In this document: piece by piece, positions 9,995 to 29,281 of the stretch
Numbering within the stretch: position 1 is the first letter of the stretch
Layout of the letters: each line of letters starts with the position of its first letter
NCBI GenBank assembly: GCA_016934825.1
Contig: JAFGSB010000050.1
Location: 1-34,622, forward strand
DNA length: 34,622 nt
Source of the DNA: Candidatus Zhuqueibacterota bacterium
GTDB lineage: Bacteria; Zhuqueibacterota; Zhuqueibacteria; Residuimicrobiales; Krinioviventaceae
Direction of reading: 5' to 3'
Notes under the pieces: model-generated
Seen by the model: the letters and a program-made list of their open reading frames with translations, nothing else
Database searches by the model: none
Told to the model about the DNA's origin: nothing
Translations under genes and position numbers: made by a program

Positions 9995-10414
9995 ATGGAA
10001 TGGTATAAAGACGAATACGTTATATCCGATGACAGAAACAGAGTTGACATCGGTAAAGTAGCTGAATTATTATCGGACACTTATTGGGCAGCGGACAGAC
10101 CCCCCGAACTCGTCAGTAAAAGTATCGAGAATTCAATGTGCTTTTCCATTTTTTCCCACAATAAACAAATCGGTTTTGGCCGTGTTGTGACCGATTATGC
10201 GGTGTTTGCATGGATTGCGGATATTATAATCCATCCCGATCACCGGGGTAAGGGGCTGGGAAAATTTTTAATGTCAATCATCGTGGAGCATCCCAATATT
10301 CCAAAATCATTGCAGTTACTCAAAACAAAAGATGCTCACAGCTTGTATGAAAAATTCGGTTTCCGAATTGATGAATGTATGGAAAAACGGGAAATAAATT
10401 CATCACAATTATAA
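9995..10414 (+). CDS. GNAT-family N-acetyltransferase
   Basis: 139 residues, typical for a single GNAT domain. The acetyl-CoA pyrophosphate-binding motif A is intact (HPDHRGKGLGKFL at 80-92), preceded by beta-strand 4 (WIADIII), and the C-terminal YEKFGF signature (118-123) is present. It transfers an acetyl group from acetyl-CoA to an amine; the substrate cannot be read from sequence. Start ATG 9995 has an A/G-rich stretch (AGAAAAG) as a weak ribosome-binding site. It lies 87 nt after the isomerase and 316 nt before the methyltransferase fusion, so it is probably its own transcription unit. Confidence 0.88.
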   Translation: MEWYKDEYVISDDRNRVDIGKVAELLSDTYWAADRPPELVSKSIENSMCFSIFSHNKQIGFGRVVTDYAVFAWIADIIIHPDHRGKGLGKFLMSIIVEHPNIPKSLQLLKTKDAHSLYEKFGFRIDECMEKREINSSQL

Positions 10415-10730: not shown

Positions 10731-12653
10731 ATGAAAAAAAGTAATGGTAAACACTCTAACCATAACCCCAAAAAGAAAAATCTGATTGAGGTGTTGGGCC
10801 CGGTAGAGGATTTGGAAAGTTATGTAAAAGCGGATTGGTGGAAACATCTGTTCAACGCGAATTATTTACGAACAGACGGAGATGTGGTCAGCGATGAAAC
10901 CATCACAATTAATGAGATAGATCTGTTCTTAAAAATACTCTCACCGGAAAAAAACAGCTTCATTCTGGATTTGTGCTGTGGTCAGGGCAGGCATTCTATT
11001 GAATTGGCTAAAAGAGGATATAAAAACATCGTTGGGATGGACCGGTCTCATTACCTGATTAACAAGGCACGTTCAATTAATTTAACAGAAGGTTTTGGAA
11101 TAACATTTAAAGAGGGTGACGCTCGTAAACTACCATTTACAAACGATAAATTCGATTTTGTGTTAATATTGGGTAACAGTTTTGGTTATTTTGAAACAAT
11201 GAACGACGATGTCCGCGTTCTGAATGAAGTATTACGCGTATTAAAACCGTCCGGAAAGGTTCTCATCGACATTACAGACGGGAATTATATGATGACCAAT
11301 TATGAACCGCGAAGCTGGGAATGGATAGATAAAAGTTATTTTGTCTGCCGGGAAAGGTCTCTCTCCAAAGACTCGCAGCGGCTGATATCCCGGGAAGTAA
11401 TTACACATGTTAAAAAGGGAGTGATTGCCGACCAGTTTTACGCGGAACGGTTATATACGGATGAAAAGATCAAAAAATTGCTGAAAAAATGCAGATTTGT
11501 CGATATTGAACTGGAACAGGAGTTGTTGACCAGTTCACAAAGGAATCAGGACCTGGGTATGATGGGCAGACGCCTGATACTGGTCGGTACGGCGAATAAA
11601 GAATGGTCGATGATCAAAGAGCCGCACAAAGCCATACGTACCGTCGCGGTTTTAATGGGTGATCCGAGAAAGCAGGATAAAATAAAACCCAATGCCACTT
11701 TTGACGACGATGACATGTACACGATAAATGAATTGAAAAAAGGGCTGAGTAAAATACATAATTTTAAATTTTCATATTTTGACAACCACAATACGATGAT
11801 AAACGACCTGAGTAAAATCAAAAAAAATGATCTGGTCTTTAATCTCTGTGATGAAGGTTTTAACAATGAGCCGACAAAAGAACTGCACGTCCCGGCATTA
11901 CTGGAGGTGGCGCAGATACCGTTCACCGGGGGAACTCCGCAATGCCTGGCTTATTGTTATGATAAATCTCTGGTCCGTGGTATCGCGGAAGAAATGGACA
12001 TACCCGTACCACAGGCGTTATTTATCAAGCCGGAAGACACAAATTTCATCGAATTGACCATCTCGTTTCCGGTAATCGTCAAGCCAAACTTTGGAGATTC
12101 CAGTTACGGTATAACCCAGGACAGTGTTTGTTATAATATTGAAAGCCTGGAAAACGCGATCAATATAATCAGGGAAAAATTCGGATATCAGCAGCCTATA
12201 CTGGTTGAGGAATTCCTCACCGGAAAGGATATCAGCGTCGGCATTATCGGAAATCCGCCCAACTCTTATTTAACCTTACCCATCATCGAGGAAGATTATT
12301 CCGAACTGCCCGAAGGGCTGCCCAAGATTTGCGGTTATGAAGCAAAATGGGACCCCGCTTCACCTTACTGGAAGATCAAATCCATCCCCGCGAAACTGGC
12401 CCCGGATAGGGAACGGTTTTTAATTGCAAGTTGTATCAAACTCTTTGAAAGACTGGGTTGTCGTGATTACGCGAGATTTGACTGGCGTCTGGATAATAAT
12501 CGTACACCGAGACTGCTGGAAGCGAACCCGAATCCCGGATGGTGCTGGGACGGACACCTTGCCAAAATGGCAAAAATCGCCGGTATTTCATATTCGGGAA
12601 TGCTGCAAAAAATTATCGAAGCCGCCATGGATAGAGTTACACCGGTGGGTTAA
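10731..12653 (+). CDS. SAM methyltransferase/ATP-grasp ligase fusion
   Basis: 640-residue cytoplasmic protein joining two enzymes. Residues about 36-288 are a class I SAM-dependent methyltransferase with motif I ILDLCCGQGRHS (78-89), acidic loop VGMDRS, post-I EGDARKLPF (128-136) and LRVLKPSGKVLID (168-180). Residues about 300-640 are an ATP-grasp domain of the D-Ala-D-Ala ligase type: VIVKPNFGDSSYG (448-460, phosphate-binding loop), LVEEFLTGKDISVG (491-504), ARFDWRLD (581-588) and LLEANPNPGW (595-604), which supplies Mg/ATP ligands. The ATP-grasp half would form an amide or peptide bond through an acyl-phosphate, and the methyltransferase half would modify the same or a related molecule. The true cell-wall Ddl is normally unfused and about 300-360 residues, so this is unlikely to be the housekeeping enzyme. 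The substrate is unknown. Confidence 0.85.
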   Translation: MKKSNGKHSNHNPKKKNLIEVLGPVEDLESYVKADWWKHLFNANYLRTDGDVVSDETITINEIDLFLKILSPEKNSFILDLCCGQGRHSIELAKRGYKNIVGMDRSHYLINKARSINLTEGFGITFKEGDARKLPFTNDKFDFVLILGNSFGYFETMNDDVRVLNEVLRVLKPSGKVLIDITDGNYMMTNYEPRSWEWIDKSYFVCRERSLSKDSQRLISREVITHVKKGVIADQFYAERLYTDEKIKKLLKKCRFVDIELEQELLTSSQRNQDLGMMGRRLILVGTANKEWSMIKEPHKAIRTVAVLMGDPRKQDKIKPNATFDDDDMYTINELKKGLSKIHNFKFSYFDNHNTMINDLSKIKKNDLVFNLCDEGFNNEPTKELHVPALLEVAQIPFTGGTPQCLAYCYDKSLVRGIAEEMDIPVPQALFIKPEDTNFIELTISFPVIVKPNFGDSSYGITQDSVCYNIESLENAINIIREKFGYQQPILVEEFLTGKDISVGIIGNPPNSYLTLPIIEEDYSELPEGLPKICGYEAKWDPASPYWKIKSIPAKLAPDRERFLIASCIKLFERLGCRDYARFDWRLDNNRTPRLLEANPNPGWCWDGHLAKMAKIAGISYSGMLQKIIEAAMDRVTPVG

Positions 12654-12695
12654 TATTATATTATTTTGATATTATTCTAATCAATTCATTTTCAG

Positions 12696-12738
12696 AAAAC
12701 CGGCGCCAATTATGTATCAAACTGACGCCGGTTTTTTT
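12696..12738 (+). terminator. Intrinsic terminator after the fusion gene
   Basis: AAAACCGGCG (12696-12705) pairs with CGCCGGTTTT (12726-12735), followed by a T run to 12738. The loop is 20 nt and may hold a few extra pairs (CCA with TGA). It lies 42 nt after the stop codon. Confidence 0.75.
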
Positions 12739-20233: not shown

Positions 20234-21550
20234 ATGAAAAAGTTAAAATCCGTTTTCCTGATCCTTTTATTGGCGTCAACCCTTTCCGCCATGACCAGGT
20301 TGGAGGACGTACACACATTCACGCTGGAGAATGGAATGAAATTTTTTGTGCTGGAAGACCATTCCATCCCGAATGCCAATATGTATATATTCTGGAAGGT
20401 CGGTTCCCGCAACGAAGTTCCCGGCATTACCGGGTTGTCGCATTTTTTCGAACACATGATGTTCAACGGAGCCAATAAGTACGGACCAAAGGAATTTGAC
20501 CGGGTTATGGAGGCAAACGGGGGAGCCAATAACGCATATACTACGGAGAACAATACCGTATATACCGACTTTTTCCCCTCCGATGCGGTAAAAGTGATCT
20601 TTGATCTTGAAGCGGACCGGATCGGCCATCTTGCATTTGAAGATTCAATGATTGAAAGTGAAAGAGGTGTTGTGCTTTCGGAACGATCAATGTATCTGAA
20701 TAACAGCAACTGGTTCAAGCTGAATGAACAGGTTTTGGCTGTGGCGTTTATGGCCCATCCCTACCGGTGGGAGGTTATCGGTTATGAATCCGATATTCGG
20801 AACTGGACCAAAACGGACCTGCAAAACTATTTCAAGACCTATTACGCACCCAATAACGGCATAGTCGTCATGGTCGGTGATATTAAAGTCGAACAGATAA
20901 AAAAACTGGCAAAACAATATTTTGAACCGATTCCGTCGCACGAACCGCCCAGACCCGTGCATACAACCGAACCCGAACAACAGGGCGAAAAAAGATTGTA
21001 CGTCCATAAAGATGTGTCCTCTCCCAACATCCTGATCGCATATCACGCTCCGGAAACCAGATACAAAGATTATTACGCGGTGGAATTACTCAGTTCAATT
21101 TTATCCGCAGGTAAATCGTCCAGATTATACACAGCGCTCATTGACGAAAATCAACTGGCCGTTTCGGTTGAGACCTATTATCCGCTGGCGTTCGACCCGA
21201 CGCTTTTTTACGTTTACGCCATCTGTAATAAAGATGTGCCTGAAGACACCCTGGAAAAAGCGATCTATGAAGAAATTGAAAAGATCAAACGGGACGGTGT
21301 AACGGAAAATGAATTACAAAAGGTCAAGAACCGTAAATTGGTAGATTTTTATCATGATATGGAACAAATCGACGGCAAGGCGAACATGATCGGAACGTAC
21401 GAACTGTACTTTGGCGATTACGAACTGCTTTTCAACGCTCCGGACGAATATCAAAAAGTGACTGTTGCCGATATTAAAGAGGCGGCCGAAAAATACCTGA
21501 AAAAATCAAACCGAACCGTGGGCATTTTAAAGAAAGCCGAGGAGGAATAA
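20234..21550 (+). CDS. M16 family zinc peptidase, catalytic subunit
   Basis: 438 residues, usual for a processing-peptidase-like M16B protein. Residues 1-19 form a signal peptide, so it acts in the periplasm or envelope. The inverted zinc motif HFFEH is present (His70, Glu73 catalytic, His74), with the third ligand most likely Glu150 in VVLSERSM. The C-terminal half is the second, non-catalytic lobe. Start ATG 20234 follows a perfect CGGAGG. One base separates its stop from the next M16 gene. The pair matches the known arrangement in which a catalytic and a non-catalytic subunit form a heterodimer that degrades peptides in a closed chamber. Confidence 0.93.
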   Translation: MKKLKSVFLILLLASTLSAMTRLEDVHTFTLENGMKFFVLEDHSIPNANMYIFWKVGSRNEVPGITGLSHFFEHMMFNGANKYGPKEFDRVMEANGGANNAYTTENNTVYTDFFPSDAVKVIFDLEADRIGHLAFEDSMIESERGVVLSERSMYLNNSNWFKLNEQVLAVAFMAHPYRWEVIGYESDIRNWTKTDLQNYFKTYYAPNNGIVVMVGDIKVEQIKKLAKQYFEPIPSHEPPRPVHTTEPEQQGEKRLYVHKDVSSPNILIAYHAPETRYKDYYAVELLSSILSAGKSSRLYTALIDENQLAVSVETYYPLAFDPTLFYVYAICNKDVPEDTLEKAIYEEIEKIKRDGVTENELQKVKNRKLVDFYHDMEQIDGKANMIGTYELYFGDYELLFNAPDEYQKVTVADIKEAAEKYLKKSNRTVGILKKAEEE

Positions 21551-21551
21551 A

Positions 21552-22958
21552 ATGAAAAGATTTTTATATTTACCGATTTTCCTGTTTTTTATGGCAGGCC
21601 TTATAGTCGGAACGAATGCACCCGCGGCGGAATCAGAAAGCGCTTTTAAATTGCCCGAATATGAAAAATCTGTTTTACAAAACGGATTGACCGTCTACCT
21701 GATGGAACAGCATGAAGTGCCTTTGGTGTATGTATCATTTGTTTTCCCAGCCGGAGCGGTCAAAGATGGAAATAAATACGGCCTCGCCTCGTTAACCGCG
21801 GAGGGACTTTTATTCGGCACTAAAAACTATACAAAAAAACAAATCGAGGAAACACTTGATTTTATCGGCGCTTCATTTAATACATACGCGGCAAAAGAAT
21901 ACGCAGGACTGTCCATGTCCTTTGTGAATACCGACCGGGACCAGGTCTTTCCCATTATGAAAGATTTAGTTTTGAATCCGCTCTTTGATGCGGACGAATT
22001 CGATAAAAGAAAAACAAGATTGCTGGTTGAACTGGAACAGGCAAAAGAAAGGCCCCGAAGCGTTATCCGTTATTATTACGATAACTTCTTATACCGGGAT
22101 CATGTATACGGCAATCCCATCCCCGGTACGATAAAAAGTGTAACCGAAATTTCCGTCAAAAATCTGAAGGACTTTTATCATTCCAATTATACTCCCAAAG
22201 GCTCCGCTCTGGCAATTGTCGGGGATTTTAACATAAAAAACATGAAACAGGAAATACAGGATTTGTTCAAAGACTGGAAAGTTAAAGAAACGGCCGCCAA
22301 AATTGAGGATAAACCCGTCCCCGTACTGAATAAAACCAGAGTTTTATTAATTAATAAGGAAGACGCGACCGACACCCAATTCATGGTCGGCGGTTACGGG
22401 ATTAAACGCGGCAATCCTGATTATATTGCCATTCAGGTCATCAATACCATTTTGGGCGGCAGGTTTACGTCGTGGCTAATGGATGAACTGCGGATTAAAA
22501 GGGGATTAACATACGGCGTTTCCAGTTTTTTCCGCCCGTATAAAAATACCGGTATTTTCGCCGTATCAAGTTTTACCGATACGGAAACTACCTTTGAAGC
22601 TCTGGACGTTACCCTGGAGATATTAAACCGGCTGCATGAACAGGGAATCGACGAAGCGACATTGAACTCGGCCAAAAACTATATCAAAGGACAATACCCG
22701 CCGCAATATGAAACGTCCGGGGACCTGGCCAATCTGTTAACGGAAATGTATATTTATGATTTTGACGAATCGTTTATCAACAACTTTCAGGATAATGTTG
22801 ACAAAATGACCGTAGAAAAATCAGGACAGATCATAAGCAAATATTTCCCAAACGATAATTTACAACTCGTTCTGATCGGCAAAGCTTCCGAGTTGCGTGA
22901 CAGCGTAGCCCAATACGGTGAAATTTCGGAGAAAGAAATCAAAGCCGACGGGTTTTAA
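21552..22958 (+). CDS. M16 family peptidase-like, non-catalytic subunit
   Basis: 468 residues, signal peptide at about 1-26. It aligns with the preceding protein, but at the HxxEH position it has LTAEG (81-85): both zinc histidines are lost and only the glutamate stays, so it cannot be a zinc protease alone. The C-terminal R-G-L-T-Y-G motif (about 317-322), which contacts substrate in M16 subunits, is intact. It is translationally coupled to the catalytic gene (TAA-A-ATG). Likely the alpha-type partner that completes the substrate chamber. Reads into a bidirectional terminator at 23080-23115. Confidence 0.92.
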   Translation: MKRFLYLPIFLFFMAGLIVGTNAPAAESESAFKLPEYEKSVLQNGLTVYLMEQHEVPLVYVSFVFPAGAVKDGNKYGLASLTAEGLLFGTKNYTKKQIEETLDFIGASFNTYAAKEYAGLSMSFVNTDRDQVFPIMKDLVLNPLFDADEFDKRKTRLLVELEQAKERPRSVIRYYYDNFLYRDHVYGNPIPGTIKSVTEISVKNLKDFYHSNYTPKGSALAIVGDFNIKNMKQEIQDLFKDWKVKETAAKIEDKPVPVLNKTRVLLINKEDATDTQFMVGGYGIKRGNPDYIAIQVINTILGGRFTSWLMDELRIKRGLTYGVSSFFRPYKNTGIFAVSSFTDTETTFEALDVTLEILNRLHEQGIDEATLNSAKNYIKGQYPPQYETSGDLANLLTEMYIYDFDESFINNFQDNVDKMTVEKSGQIISKYFPNDNLQLVLIGKASELRDSVAQYGEISEKEIKADGF

Positions 22959-23164: not shown

Positions 23165-26100
23165 TTATTTTATCAGCAGCAGCTTTTTCGCCTGTGTAAA
23201 GTCACCGGCTTTAATATAATAAATATAAATTCCGGTTGAAACCTTTCGGCCGTATTTATCTATACCGTTCCACACAGCCTTATATTCACCGGGCTCGTGG
23301 AAATCATCAACCAGTACACGCACCTCGTTCCCCAACAGATTATAAATCGTCAATTTCACCGGCACCGTCTTTGGTATTTGATAACGGATCACCGTGGTCG
23401 GATTAAACGGGTTCGGATAATTATTCAGCAGGGCAAACTCTGTCGGGATCTTGTTATCTTCCTGTTTTACGCCGGACTCGATGATATGTACCCGGTAGTC
23501 CTCCACTTCACCGTCAATGGCCAGGCCTTTATAAGACCGCGGACTGAGAGTACTGAACCGGAAACGGGCAAAATTATTTTTGGATACGGCAAAATCCGGA
23601 ACATTAAAAGACATATCATTTGTCCCGGCTGTTATCCATTCATCAATAAATACATGTTCTTCGTGACCGTCCCACATACCATCGGCGTTATAATCGATCC
23701 ATACATTCAATACCCCGTCTACCGAAACGGTTACCTGAATTTTGGCCTGTTCACCGGCTTTAAGGGGAGTCAAAAAGGCAACACCGTCATCATCGTTACT
23801 GCCGTCATTGTCGTCCCCTTTCGCATCCGGATCGGGCTGGCCGTCGGGGTCCGCATCCACTTTGTCGCCGAGAAAAACTCCCGGTTCGATAATGTGGTAT
23901 GCGCCGTTATTGACCAGAAATGTCGGATACGACGGGTCAGGGGCGTCGCCAAAATCATAATTCTCGGCCGGTTCAATGGTAAACAATTCAAATGCCATGT
24001 CCCACAAAAACGGCAGTGGTTCGCCGATTTCATAAACATCGCCGCTGTCCGGCGTTGTCGGTTTGAAAATACTGACGGCGTCGTCATTGAAATAGTGATC
24101 TCTCGTTTTCCAGCCCCAGATACAGGAATCCGGTAATGTATTATATATCGCGGAAACGCTTAACCAAAAGATCGTCGAATCCGGTTCCTGGAAGAACCAG
24201 TCTTCAGGCGGAATGTTAAACGTATATTTAAAGGTCGAATCCGGTTTCTCCATACGATCCGGGAAAAAATCACCCCGGTTCACCCTTTCATTCAATGAAC
24301 TCCGGTTAACGATCCACTCCTTGATCAACATAGCCGGATGGCTGAACGGGCTGTCTTCTCCGGCGGGAACATCTTTCCATACACCGATATGGAATTTAGA
24401 CGGCGCGTTTGGCGGCGGTTTGCTCGAATCCCACTCTGCATAAGAACCCCACCATTGAATTCCTGTCAGCGGCCGCGGATCGTTGCAGAACCAGTCGTCG
24501 GCAACGATCTTTTCGGTAAAAATTGACGGCTCGTCCCACCCGAAATAACATTCCGGGTGAGGCGAATCAGGATTCAACAACGGTCTTTGCGACCACTTGA
24601 AGGGCCCTTCTCCCCCGTCGTCTTTCTTTTTGATCAGTACCGCGTAATCTTCCACTTCACCATCCGAAGCTGGACCTTTATAGGATAATCCGCCGTTTCT
24701 GTTAAAACGGAACCGGCTGTATATTTTTACCACGGGTGTTGTAGACGGGATGTTTATGACAAGAGAATTTACTCCGGCTGACAGTGCTTTATTGTTAAAA
24801 ACATGCTCATCGGCCTCTTCCCAGTCGCCATCGGCGTTGAAATCGACCCAGGCGTTAAGCATACCACTTATGGATGCGATAACATCAACTGCGACTGGTC
24901 CACCCGGATACGGTGTGGACGTAAAAATAACGCCGTCCTCATCGTCAATGCCGTTATTATCATCACCCACTGCATTGAGGGATTGTAAACCGTTAACCTC
25001 GGGATCAACGGACGGACCGAGATGAACGCCGGGAACGATTGAATGATATGCCCCGCCGTTCGCATGCAGTGTGGGGAATGACGGATCGGGCGCGTCGCCA
25101 AAGTCATAGTCTTCTTCGGTGATCAATGGTACAAAATAATAATCCTCGGTTTCGCCAAACTGGTATCCGTCCGCCGGTCCGGCACCTCCCGGAATAATTA
25201 TACCGTTTACATTTGTCGATTCCCATGGACGCTCGGAAAGTGTAATCCGCATCCAGATTGGCGGTGTAATTCCAGATGTTTCGGGATGCCAGGCCAGGAA
25301 AGTCGGAGTGTTAAAATTATAAATTCCGGGCGCGGAGAGAGTAATAACCTGGTTCTGAACGGCCCATTCTGGAACGTTATTGCCATCGGGACAGGTCATA
25401 GTATCGGTCCAGTCGCCGTCGCGGTTCCAGTCGAACCAAACATTAACGTATAATGTCTTCGTTGTAATGTTCACAACTGTAATTTCATAATTAAATGTAT
25501 TCTTTACACAATTAGCCAGCAAAAGCGGCATTTTCACGCCGTCATCGGTTTCGTCCAAATCGGGTGTATCCGTTTGCGGTTCAATGTTATTGGTCGGGTC
25601 CTCGTCCGGACCGACGTCGGCTTCGTTTTCCAGTGTTACATGCTTGCCCAGAAAAGCCAGGTCCCGTGGAAGTCTGTGTATCGGGCCATAGGGAGGAGAA
25701 CCGGCCAGATAGACGGTCGGGTAGTGAGCAATGGTGCCCGGAGGCCCTCCCGCCGGATAAGCCGTCATAGGCAGCGGCGGGAAATTATTACTGCCGTCCG
25801 GAGCGTCGCCAAGCTCGGCTTTGGGTTCTTTTTCCTCACCAATCTTGACTTTATAATCCTCAACCTCACCGTCGGGCGCAAAGCCGTCAAAGCCCAGACT
25901 GCGAACACTGCTGAACCGGAACCGTGTAAAAGTTTCACCCGGATGGGCGCTTAAAGGTATGTTGATATTAAAGGTATTCGTACCGGTTGAAACCGGTTGA
26001 GCGGCAATAATATGCTCCGCCGGTCCGGCCCAGTTGCCGTTTGCATCAAAGTCCATCCAGGCGTTCAGGGCCCCTTTTGCGGAGGCTGTTACCTCTACCG

Positions 26101-29100
26101 TCGCCGGTTGTCCGGGCTGTAAAGCAGTGGTAAATTTCACCCCGTTTTCATCATCATTCCCGTCATTGTCGTCGCCTTCGGCGTCCGGGTCAGGTTGACC
26201 GTCCGGATCCGGATCAACCCCGGTTCCAAGGTGAAATCCGCCTTTGATGATATGACGGGCGCCATTGTTAATAAGTAATGTCGGATAGGTTGGGTCCGGT
26301 GCGTCGCCAAAATCTATTTCTTCTCCGGGCTCCTCGGACGTCAATTCAAATGCCATATCCCATCTCTCACCTATGGGATGCCCTTCCATAAACACATCTC
26401 CGATTCCCGGAGCCGCCGGTGCAAAAATAACGACGGCATTATCATTAAAATAGTGTTCGCGTGTTTTCCATCCCCAAACAAAATCCTCGGGCGGCTTATC
26501 ATACAATGCGGCAATACTGATCCAGAAAACGGAAGAGTCCCCCGGCTGGTAAAACCAGGCATCCGGGGGCAAAATCAAATCATATTTATAACAGGTTTCC
26601 GGATTTTTCATATCTCCGGGAAAAAAGTCACAACCCACCGGTCGTTCATTCAATGCAGCACGATCAACCATCCATTCCCAGATTACAGTCCCCGGATGGC
26701 TCCAGGGTAAATCAGCGCCGGCGGGCACATCCTTCCATATACCGATATGGAACCGAACCGGACCATCGGGAGGCGGTTTTTCGCTGTCCCAATTCAGATA
26801 CGATCCCCACCAGTGAATATCGGTTACAGGTCGTTCATCCGTGCACAACCAGTCATCCGCAACGATTTGATGCTCATACAAAGACGGTTCATCCCACCCC
26901 CAGAAACAATCGGGGAAGGGGGAATCCGGATTGTGTAACGGAGGTTGAGACCATTTAAGTGGAAACTTTTCTTCAGTGGTAATATTTACTTCATAATCTT
27001 CCACTTCACCATCCGGAGCGGGGCCTTTATCGGACAGGCCCCTCTGGGTACTGTATCGAATTCTGGCAAATGTCTTTCCGGGTACTGCGCCGGCAGGTAT
27101 GGAAAAAGGATAAGTAGAAGTCGTTTGCATTGGAATTGTGGATGTAACCGTCCCGAATACCTGGGCATCGACGATCACATGTTCATTCACATCAAGCCAG
27201 TCACGGTCACCGTTGAAATCTATCCAGGCATTTATATAGGCCGACCCCAATCCGGTTGTTGTGACGGTAAGAATAGTCGAGGAGCTTACAGTTAATGATA
27301 CGGGCAGGATAACACCATCCTCGTCATCATTGCCGCCAATATCATCGCCCATCCCCCCGGGGAACGGTTGGCCGTCAGGTTCCGCGTCTATTAACTTACC
27401 CAAAAAAAAGCTGGGATTTATATAATGCCTGGCGCCATTGTTCGCTCTTAAAGTGGGATATTTGGGAACAAACAGCGAATCTGGCGCGTCACCCCAGTCT
27501 ATATCTTTGGAACCGGCTCCCTCTAAATAATAATCCTCGGTTTCCCCGTATTTATAACCATTGACCGGTCCCCGACCGTCTGCGATTTTTGTTCCCGGTA
27601 CCAGAGGCGCTTTTTGTTCGGCAAGTGTAATTCTCATCCAGACGGGTTGATCCGGGTGATAAGCCAGAAACGGGGTTGTCGGAAATAGAGTTTTACCATT
27701 CCCAAAACCTATCGGTTGATCCTGAACAGACCATTCATAAAGGACGGAGCCATCCTCACATTCCATAATATCGCTCCAGTCGCCGTCACGGTTCCAGTCG
27801 AACCACACATTCAAATACCGGGTGGCAAAACCGCCGACAACATTGATTTCGACCATAAAATCAGATGCTGCACAGTGATTTAAATTCAATGATCCAGTAA
27901 TAATACAATCATCTGCACCATCCTGATCGGGTACATCGGATTTGGGATCGATATTGGTAAGACCGTCTTCGTCCGGCAAATGGTCGGCTTCATTTTCCAT
28001 AGTGACTTTGGGACCAAGCCATGCATCTTCATAGGGTCTGTGATGAAAAGGCCCATGAGGCGGCGAACCGCCCTGAAAGACTGTCGGATACATAGCAATC
28101 ACTCCGGGGGGACCTCCCGGAGGGTAGGCAGTCATATATGAGCCGAAACTGTTGGTGCTGTCGGGAGCATCACCGAGGTCGCCCTGACTTTCACCCCTTT
28201 CCAGAAAAATCACATAATCTTCCACCTCACCGTCCGGCGCAGATCCGTCAAAAGGCAGACTGTCCTGCCTGCTGAAGCGGAAACGTGCGTATGTTTCGCC
28301 CGGTACGGCATTTCCGGGAATTGATATAGTTTTTGTTATTGTTTTATCAATTAAAAAATTAAAAATTGGATTTTCATTAACGTCCTTCCAGTCGCCATCC
28401 CTGTTGAAATCAAACCAGGCACTTAAAAAACCGGAATCCGACGCTGTAAAACCAAGTTCCAGCGGTCTGCCAATTATAATACTTGTAGGTATAACAACAC
28501 CGTCTTCGTCATCATTACCGTCATTATCATCCCCGGAAGCGGCCGGATCGGGCTGGCCGTCGGGTTCCGAGTCCACACCGCTGCCCAGGTATAATGTTGA
28601 ATCAATGAGATGCCGGGCGCCGTCGCTGGCCAGCAGCGTTGGGTATGTCGGGTCCGGCACATCGCCGAAATCGAGTACATCACAGACATCAACGCTGATA
28701 TACTTGTTCTTGACCTGATCATCCGAACCCTGCCGGCACTGGATACTCAGCTTGACATTATAAACACCCGGGTTATTATATGTCACAATATGAGGACCTT
28801 TACCTGTTGCCGTTGCCGGTGTTCCGCCGGTAAAATTCCAGGCCCAACTTACTGCGTCAGAAGACATATCCTCAAACGTGACAGTTAACGGGGCACAACC
28901 GGATCTTGGAGAAGCTTTAAAATCTGCAACACACCCGCAATCCTCTACAGTTATATAGCCCTGTTTATATTCCAAATCCGCTCCACCGGTGCACTCTATA
29001 TCCAGTATTACATCAAAAGTACCGGCATTGTAATAGGTTACCGTATGCGGTCCTTTGCCGGTAGCACTCGAGGGTGTGCCGCCCGGAAAACTCCATGACC

Positions 29101-29281
29101 AATGCGTTGCATCTTCGGACTTGTCTGTAAACTCAACCACCAATGGTTTGCAGCCGGATGTTTTATTTGCTGTAAAGTCAGCGTCACATACTGCGCTTGC
29201 TGATTCAATAAATGTTAAAGTAGGCAAAATCAGAAAAAGGATGAATAATATAAAACTTTTCTTACCGTTTAATACATTCAT
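23165..29281 (-). CDS. Giant multidomain surface protein: PKD, GEVED modules, T9SS sorting domain
   Basis: 2,038 residues. Signal peptide 1-30; two PKD domains (32-113 and 116-199), each with a paired-cysteine start and a GPH-VTY-N-G core. Then nine modules. Five standard GEVED modules (A 203-360, C 594-770, E 989-1148, G 1392-1552, I 1774-1935) open with DFGDAPD-like motifs and close with GEVEDY, with Asp-rich, presumably calcium-binding loops (GDDNDGNDDEDG). Two longer variants (B 368-586, F 1156-1384) close with GETEDYY. Two Trp-rich modules (D 773-985, H 1560-1770) contain W-WGSY and HIG-WKDVPAG. Order A-B-C-D then E-F-G-H repeats with nearly equal length. Residues 1946-2038 are the T9SS type A domain (NNYPNPFNP, final KKLLLIK). 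Likely an adhesin or structural surface protein; no catalytic motif seen. Confidence 0.88.
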   Translation of the reverse strand: MNVLNGKKSFILFILFLILPTLTFIESASAVCDADFTANKTSGCKPLVVEFTDKSEDATHWSWSFPGGTPSSATGKGPHTVTYYNAGTFDVILDIECTGGADLEYKQGYITVEDCGCVADFKASPRSGCAPLTVTFEDMSSDAVSWAWNFTGGTPATATGKGPHIVTYNNPGVYNVKLSIQCRQGSDDQVKNKYISVDVCDVLDFGDVPDPTYPTLLASDGARHLIDSTLYLGSGVDSEPDGQPDPAASGDDNDGNDDEDGVVIPTSIIIGRPLELGFTASDSGFLSAWFDFNRDGDWKDVNENPIFNFLIDKTITKTISIPGNAVPGETYARFRFSRQDSLPFDGSAPDGEVEDYVIFLERGESQGDLGDAPDSTNSFGSYMTAYPPGGPPGVIAMYPTVFQGGSPPHGPFHHRPYEDAWLGPKVTMENEADHLPDEDGLTNIDPKSDVPDQDGADDCIITGSLNLNHCAASDFMVEINVVGGFATRYLNVWFDWNRDGDWSDIMECEDGSVLYEWSVQDQPIGFGNGKTLFPTTPFLAYHPDQPVWMRITLAEQKAPLVPGTKIADGRGPVNGYKYGETEDYYLEGAGSKDIDWGDAPDSLFVPKYPTLRANNGARHYINPSFFLGKLIDAEPDGQPFPGGMGDDIGGNDDEDGVILPVSLTVSSSTILTVTTTGLGSAYINAWIDFNGDRDWLDVNEHVIVDAQVFGTVTSTIPMQTTSTYPFSIPAGAVPGKTFARIRYSTQRGLSDKGPAPDGEVEDYEVNITTEEKFPLKWSQPPLHNPDSPFPDCFWGWDEPSLYEHQIVADDWLCTDERPVTDIHWWGSYLNWDSEKPPPDGPVRFHIGIWKDVPAGADLPWSHPGTVIWEWMVDRAALNERPVGCDFFPGDMKNPETCYKYDLILPPDAWFYQPGDSSVFWISIAALYDKPPEDFVWGWKTREHYFNDNAVVIFAPAAPGIGDVFMEGHPIGERWDMAFELTSEEPGEEIDFGDAPDPTYPTLLINNGARHIIKGGFHLGTGVDPDPDGQPDPDAEGDDNDGNDDENGVKFTTALQPGQPATVEVTASAKGALNAWMDFDANGNWAGPAEHIIAAQPVSTGTNTFNINIPLSAHPGETFTRFRFSSVRSLGFDGFAPDGEVEDYKVKIGEEKEPKAELGDAPDGSNNFPPLPMTAYPAGGPPGTIAHYPTVYLAGSPPYGPIHRLPRDLAFLGKHVTLENEADVGPDEDPTNNIEPQTDTPDLDETDDGVKMPLLLANCVKNTFNYEITVVNITTKTLYVNVWFDWNRDGDWTDTMTCPDGNNVPEWAVQNQVITLSAPGIYNFNTPTFLAWHPETSGITPPIWMRITLSERPWESTNVNGIIIPGGAGPADGYQFGETEDYYFVPLITEEDYDFGDAPDPSFPTLHANGGAYHSIVPGVHLGPSVDPEVNGLQSLNAVGDDNNGIDDEDGVIFTSTPYPGGPVAVDVIASISGMLNAWVDFNADGDWEEADEHVFNNKALSAGVNSLVINIPSTTPVVKIYSRFRFNRNGGLSYKGPASDGEVEDYAVLIKKKDDGGEGPFKWSQRPLLNPDSPHPECYFGWDEPSIFTEKIVADDWFCNDPRPLTGIQWWGSYAEWDSSKPPPNAPSKFHIGVWKDVPAGEDSPFSHPAMLIKEWIVNRSSLNERVNRGDFFPDRMEKPDSTFKYTFNIPPEDWFFQEPDSTIFWLSVSAIYNTLPDSCIWGWKTRDHYFNDDAVSIFKPTTPDSGDVYEIGEPLPFLWDMAFELFTIEPAENYDFGDAPDPSYPTFLVNNGAYHIIEPGVFLGDKVDADPDGQPDPDAKGDDNDGSNDDDGVAFLTPLKAGEQAKIQVTVSVDGVLNVWIDYNADGMWDGHEEHVFIDEWITAGTNDMSFNVPDFAVSKNNFARFRFSTLSPRSYKGLAIDGEVEDYRVHIIESGVKQEDNKIPTEFALLNNYPNPFNPTTVIRYQIPKTVPVKLTIYNLLGNEVRVLVDDFHEPGEYKAVWNGIDKYGRKVSTGIYIYYIKAGDFTQAKKLLLIK
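23972..26317 (-). repeat. Second copy of the four-module super-repeat (E-F-G-H)
   Basis: Encodes residues 989-1770 (782 residues) of the giant protein. It is parallel in order and length to the first copy. The D/H modules match across their whole length, for example the shared VADDW, PPP-PxFHIG and HYFNDxAV segments. Confidence 0.75.
26327..28675 (-). repeat. First copy of the four-module super-repeat (A-B-C-D)
   Basis: Encodes residues 203-985 (783 residues). It is homologous in order and length to the block at 23972-26317, with only three residues between the two. Confidence 0.75.

Follow-up and report, generated by a model that had tools for sequence, protein, structure and literature searches.

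The window analysed here is a stretch of 34,622 nucleotides from a Candidatus Zhuqueibacterota bacterium (assembly GCA_016934825.1, contig JAFGSB010000050.1), in which positions 10731–12653 of the plus strand form, according to the open reading frame list, one frame with an ATG start, 640 codons and no internal stop. A preliminary description made from the sequence had read this frame as a single polypeptide joining a SAM methyltransferase to an ATP-grasp enzyme of the D-Ala-D-Ala ligase (Ddl) type. This holds, since in Pfam both Methyltransf_25 (residues 78–175, E 7e-21) and Dala_Dala_lig_C (residues 439–630, E 1.9e-24) score above their gathering thresholds, and the three motifs quoted in that description all lie in the frame. 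The GNAT gene that it placed 316 nt upstream is found at 9995–10414, and the flanking terminator that it mentioned, downstream of the gene, is real and convincing; a simple terminator scan of the downstream region gave no match, probably because it was restricted to loops of 3–8. The features are as follows:

10731..12653, plus strand: fusion gene, class I SAM methyltransferase and Ddl-fold ATP-grasp ligase, 640 aa (open reading frame list, Pfam, full-length homologues)
10794..11600, plus strand: methyltransferase half, residues ~22–290, Rossmann core and beta cap (AlphaFold, VIA-align, Pfam)
10962..10997, plus strand: SAM motif I, ILDLCCGQGRHS, residues 78–89 (D80, C83, G84 and G86 invariant in 82 sequences)
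11601..11633, plus strand: variable linker, residues ~291–301 (mean pairwise identity 32%; pLDDT <50 at 295–300)
11634..12638, plus strand: ATP-grasp ligase half, residues ~302–636, complete Ddl fold (VIA-align, Foldseek)
12081..12110, plus strand: KPNFGDSSYG, residues 451–460, ATP/donor loop (K451, G455, D456 and G460 invariant)
12519..12569, plus strand: EANPNPGWCWDGHLAKM, residues 597–613, family-specific acceptor loop preceded by the metal ligands E597 and N599 (82-sequence alignment)
12694..12738, plus strand: intrinsic terminator of the fusion gene, with a T tract (folding energy of 12694–12737, −17.3 kcal/mol; z −4.42)

The AlphaFold model of the full-length protein has a mean pLDDT of 84.5, with 89 for the methyltransferase half. 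The structure prediction called for in the preliminary description yields two intact folds, while the placement of the two domains relative to each other is unreliable (pTM 0.54). Among the matches listed (n = 50), the methyltransferase half aligns with methyltransferase structures at VIA-align Z scores of 20.9–24.6, and its Rossmann fold and SAM motif I place it among the class I SAM methyltransferases. The ligase half aligns with Ddl and Van ligase structures at Z ~30 over ~295 residues (Foldseek E 7.7e-24), and the fusion reaches 86.8 bits against PF07478 (ATP-grasp, Ddl type; cut-off 24), with the fold and the ATP and Mg residues of that family. Throughout an alignment of 82 sequences, D80, G84, G86 and D104 of the SAM site are invariant, as are K451, E493, K539, R582, D584, E597 and N599 of the ligase half. 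The earlier proposal of a bifunctional tailoring and ligation enzyme is therefore supported at the level of conserved catalytic residues, and the loss of such residues from one domain, named at the time as an argument against it, is seen in neither half. Mean identity is 65% and 67% for the two halves as compared to 32% for the linker, and pairwise distances in the methyltransferase half correlate with those in the ligase half (0.86); judged by these comparisons, the two halves evolve together and share a history, with the linker free to vary.

The fusion is neither a chance event nor a local join, since full-length versions recur across genome samples. A search of 60 genomes recovered them in five, the window genome included, at 82% identity to the window fusion in the same genus and 62–68% within the class, and further samples gave 6 of 82 genomes (phylum), 7 of 369 (Gammaproteobacteria, centre genome included) and 4 of 149. 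Scanning 84,980 species genomes with two patterns from the methyltransferase half returned ~440 relatives, the best 80 of which are all full-length fusions, 60–82% identical and spread over ~20 phyla. The genome that holds the window is a relative of candidate division KSB1, and one locus (L024) is apparently the contig of a genome (G043) from the same class. Carriers belong to the Planctomycetota, Pseudomonadota, Spirochaetota, Bacteroidota, Nitrospirota, Cyanobacteriota, candidate phyla and archaea. Several phyla are non-contiguous in the tree of fusions, which suggests horizontal transfer, to which misbinned contigs could contribute. The archaeal occurrence is real, as one locus bears archaeal-type PheT and PheS (L055), another TiaS and archaeal GatD (L066), and as matches to the fusion occur in 45 of the 295 genomes searched in one archaeal phylum, several of them on megabase contigs. 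Through gene decay or assembly error, the reading frame is split or interrupted by a stop in some of the archaeal copies (G651:C53, G846:C27, G767:C2, G754:C11 and C69). A phage or plasmid origin was considered and rejected, as the searches gave no full-length match, and ATP-grasp matches on rhizobial plasmids were set aside (~32% identity, ligase half only, context not shared). No published description of the fusion was found in the open-access library searched, a coverage that takes in few subscription papers. The fusion is real, joins two known kinds of enzyme and is unusually widespread.

Most copies of the fusion gene are orphans, in agreement with the earlier view that it likely works without an operon partner. 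The GNAT gene, which had been singled out as the only obvious neighbouring chemistry, is absent from the sister species, where a TetR gene takes its place while the downstream genes are syntenic; nor is GNAT among the recurrent neighbour families in a survey of the fusion's neighbours. Two adjacent M16 peptidase genes of the window (20234–22958, plus strand) are syntenic in the sister genome, and a 2038-aa protein (23165–29281, minus strand) combines GEVED, DUF7901 and PKD domains with a weak type IX sorting-like C-terminus. Archaeal neighbourhoods are conserved within lineages only. Three archaeal genomes (L194, L196 and L203) share one neighbour family beside the fusion, the L196 member of which resembles, by eye, a NifB-type radical SAM protein. 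Planctomycetes of the Phycisphaerae type have the gene in the rpsP-trmD region; at one locus trmD is 3 nt upstream (L082), and at another the fusion and TrmD share one open frame of 911 aa (L073:9254-11989). A RimK-like gene is found near some copies.

The standout family among immediate neighbours is AstE_AspA_cat (9 of 116 neighbours), and this deacylase is the only recurrent partner of the fusion. The preliminary description mentions neither it nor the very wide distribution. The adjoining deacylases belong mostly to one subfamily with an SDLSRRRLP-like motif and occur in SAR324, Cyclobacteriaceae, Thiotrichaceae, Myxococcota, TA06 and others. They have the AstE/AspA catalytic domain (PF24827) with zinc and catalytic residues of the HGDE, HND and ELG type, and H42, E45, H130 and E194 do not vary among 22 aligned rows, a number that includes duplicate rows of one gene. 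A search with one protein of this subfamily places the deacylase in 19 of 50 fusion genomes, a figure biased upward because 8 of them were previously known from adjacency. The deacylase is absent from the other 31 and from the window's own genome, so it is not required everywhere. The deacylase is rare: the single genome that has it among 81 of the KSB1 phylum is a fusion carrier, and all four among 369 gammaproteobacterial genomes (centre included) carry the fusion. With the centre left out, the fusion is present in all three deacylase carriers but in only six of the 368 genomes as a whole (p 2.4e-6 by a hypergeometric test, uncorrected for kinship and for possible joint transfer). The two genes are on different contigs in 2 of these 3 carriers, which argues for a functional tie and not for linkage alone; they are linked in G418 and G101. 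In the Planctomycetota sample the deacylase occurs only in the chosen centre genome. No second recurrent partner was found beside unlinked deacylase genes.

The explanation we favour, with about an even chance of being right, is that the fusion is bifunctional, ligating and methylating, and that its product is a methylated small molecule with an amide link, cleaved by the deacylase in some carriers. With ATP, the C-terminal half would convert a carboxylate into its acyl phosphate and join it to an amine by Ddl-type chemistry with substrates other than D-Ala, the donor probably being amino-acid-like and the acceptor an amine. With SAM as methyl donor, the N-terminal half would methylate that molecule or one of the units it is built from, most probably at a nitrogen and not at oxygen or carbon, yielding a dipeptide-like product, presumably a small molecule and not a protein. 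Where a dedicated DoeB-like zinc deacylase (AstE/AspA) is also encoded, it would cleave this product, to turn it over or to set free a protected intermediate. The N-methyltransferases of amino acids and amino sugars among the structural neighbours of the methyltransferase half, and the amino-acid chemistry suggested by the operons of unfused ATP-grasp relatives, speak for this reading, as do the shared history of the two halves and the co-occurrence with the deacylase. We take the chemistry from the enzyme families of the halves, and infer the catalytic activity of the fusion, the action of both halves on one molecule and the part played by the deacylase; the identity of the substrate does not follow from the observations. 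That fusion and dedicated deacylase constitute a two-gene system for making and cleaving an undescribed metabolite of this kind, common to bacteria and archaea, is put forward more tentatively, as falling somewhat short of an even chance. That an enzyme so patchily distributed, and in most cases an orphan, keeps ~60% identity from bacterial to archaeal phyla points to a single fixed reaction acquired by many unrelated microbes. If the product is a metabolite, present annotation misses it, as domain models label the protein only in general terms, as methyltransferase or D-Ala-D-Ala ligase. Experimental handles are provided by the partner deacylase and by cultured carriers such as Desulforhopalus vacuolatus DSM 9700 (L084).

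The main rival, though an unlikely one, is protein or peptide modification, in which the fusion would add an amino acid to a ribosomal protein or short peptide and methylate it, with the AstE-like enzyme as eraser. RimK acting on S6 is the model for such a writer. The rpsP-trmD location and the in-frame joining to TrmD fit this reading, as do the RimK-like gene near some copies and the presence of CypM, an N-terminal peptide methyltransferase, among the structural neighbours. However, the ligase half is of the Ddl and not the RimK type, the trmD link was seen in planctomycetes only, and no recurrent small precursor gene adjoins the fusion in the neighbourhoods examined.

Production of a low-molecular-weight thiol, or modification of bacillithiol after the manner of NmbA, has little probability. 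It draws on the fact that the solved methyltransferase nearest by sequence is 9RI2 (~225 residues aligned, E 2.7e-28), which is NmbA, the bacillithiol N-methyltransferase acting on the cysteine nitrogen of bacillithiol (PMC12719100). By fold, NmbA (VIA-align Z 23.3) is tied by several small-molecule N-methyltransferases, the structural neighbours of this half comprising N-methyltransferases of amino acids and amino sugars besides NmbA. In contrast to the fusion, NmbA is free-standing, and BshC is present in only 9 of 52 fusion carriers and absent from 43; archaea lack bacillithiol (PMC12719100). The window genome moreover encodes a shorter NmbA-like methyltransferase directly followed by bshC (G000:C106:14008-15860), from which the organism may make N-methyl-bacillithiol. 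Given the distribution of BshC and this separate gene, bacillithiol was rejected as the common substrate. Similarly improbable is that one half alone is catalytic and the other a regulatory or scaffold domain: an ATP-grasp-only relative exists as an indirect hint, but neither half varies at its cofactor and catalytic positions across the 82 sequences.

Returning to the favoured amide-linked, methylated small molecule, the known systems closest to the ligase half are DdlB and the Van ligases, with which the fusion has in common the complete fold, the ATP and metal residues and the YEAK motif, although it is only 20–26% identical to them and below their family cut-offs (110.6–112.3 bits against TIGR01205, D-alanine--D-alanine ligase, curated cut-off 245.65). 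At the position that we take to be Tyr216 of DdlB, where a Ddl would have Tyr or Phe, the fusion has a tryptophan (W540) invariant in the 82 sequences, and its acceptor loop reads NPGWCWDGHLAKM in place of what is presumably PGMTSHSLVP in DdlB. The positions GWCWDGHLAKM of this loop are nearly or fully invariant in the same alignment; within EANPNPGWCWDGHLAKM, E597, N599, G603, W604, C605, D607, G608, H609 and M613 are fully so, and the region is unlike that of Ddl or of unfused ATP-grasp relatives. Considering this loop, the low score and a separate Ddl of 349.7 bits in the window genome, the fusion is, on sequence grounds, not the cell's D-Ala-D-Ala ligase. The same facts, together with the many archaeal carriers, make it very improbable that it is a cell-wall enzyme producing D-Ala-D-X or the peptidoglycan-like precursor earlier suggested, despite its Ddl fold and family.

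For the partner deacylase, the nearest named family is DoeB/EutE (N-acetyl-diaminobutanoate deacetylase), yet at 62–71 bits it lies far under that family's cut-off of 403, which makes a different substrate likely. The nearest unfused ATP-grasps found in the class are paired in tandem, with GNAT and, in several genomes, lysine 2,3-aminomutase genes after them; such operons, with two tandem Ddl-like ATP-grasps, GNAT and often lysine 2,3-aminomutase, recur at L105–L111 (e.g. L106:7030-10721). Their ligases are 31–39% identical to the fusion and share FNLCE-like and YEAKW motifs with it, whereas the two ligases are separate, a methyltransferase is absent and the acceptor loops differ. The lysine 2,3-aminomutase and GNAT genes point to amino-acid chemistry for these unfused relatives. 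One ATP-grasp-only relative (G442, 43% identical) carries NPAWCWDGKLALM, so a closely similar acceptor loop occurs unfused and a fused methyltransferase is not needed for the ligase to act. We know of no fused methyltransferase in PylC of pyrrolysine synthesis. Compared by description only, this member of the Ddl/carbamoyl-phosphate-synthetase superfamily offers a precedent for an amide-forming ligase in the superfamily of the fusion, given the proposal that it links two amino-acid parts through an amide bond (PMC2933860).
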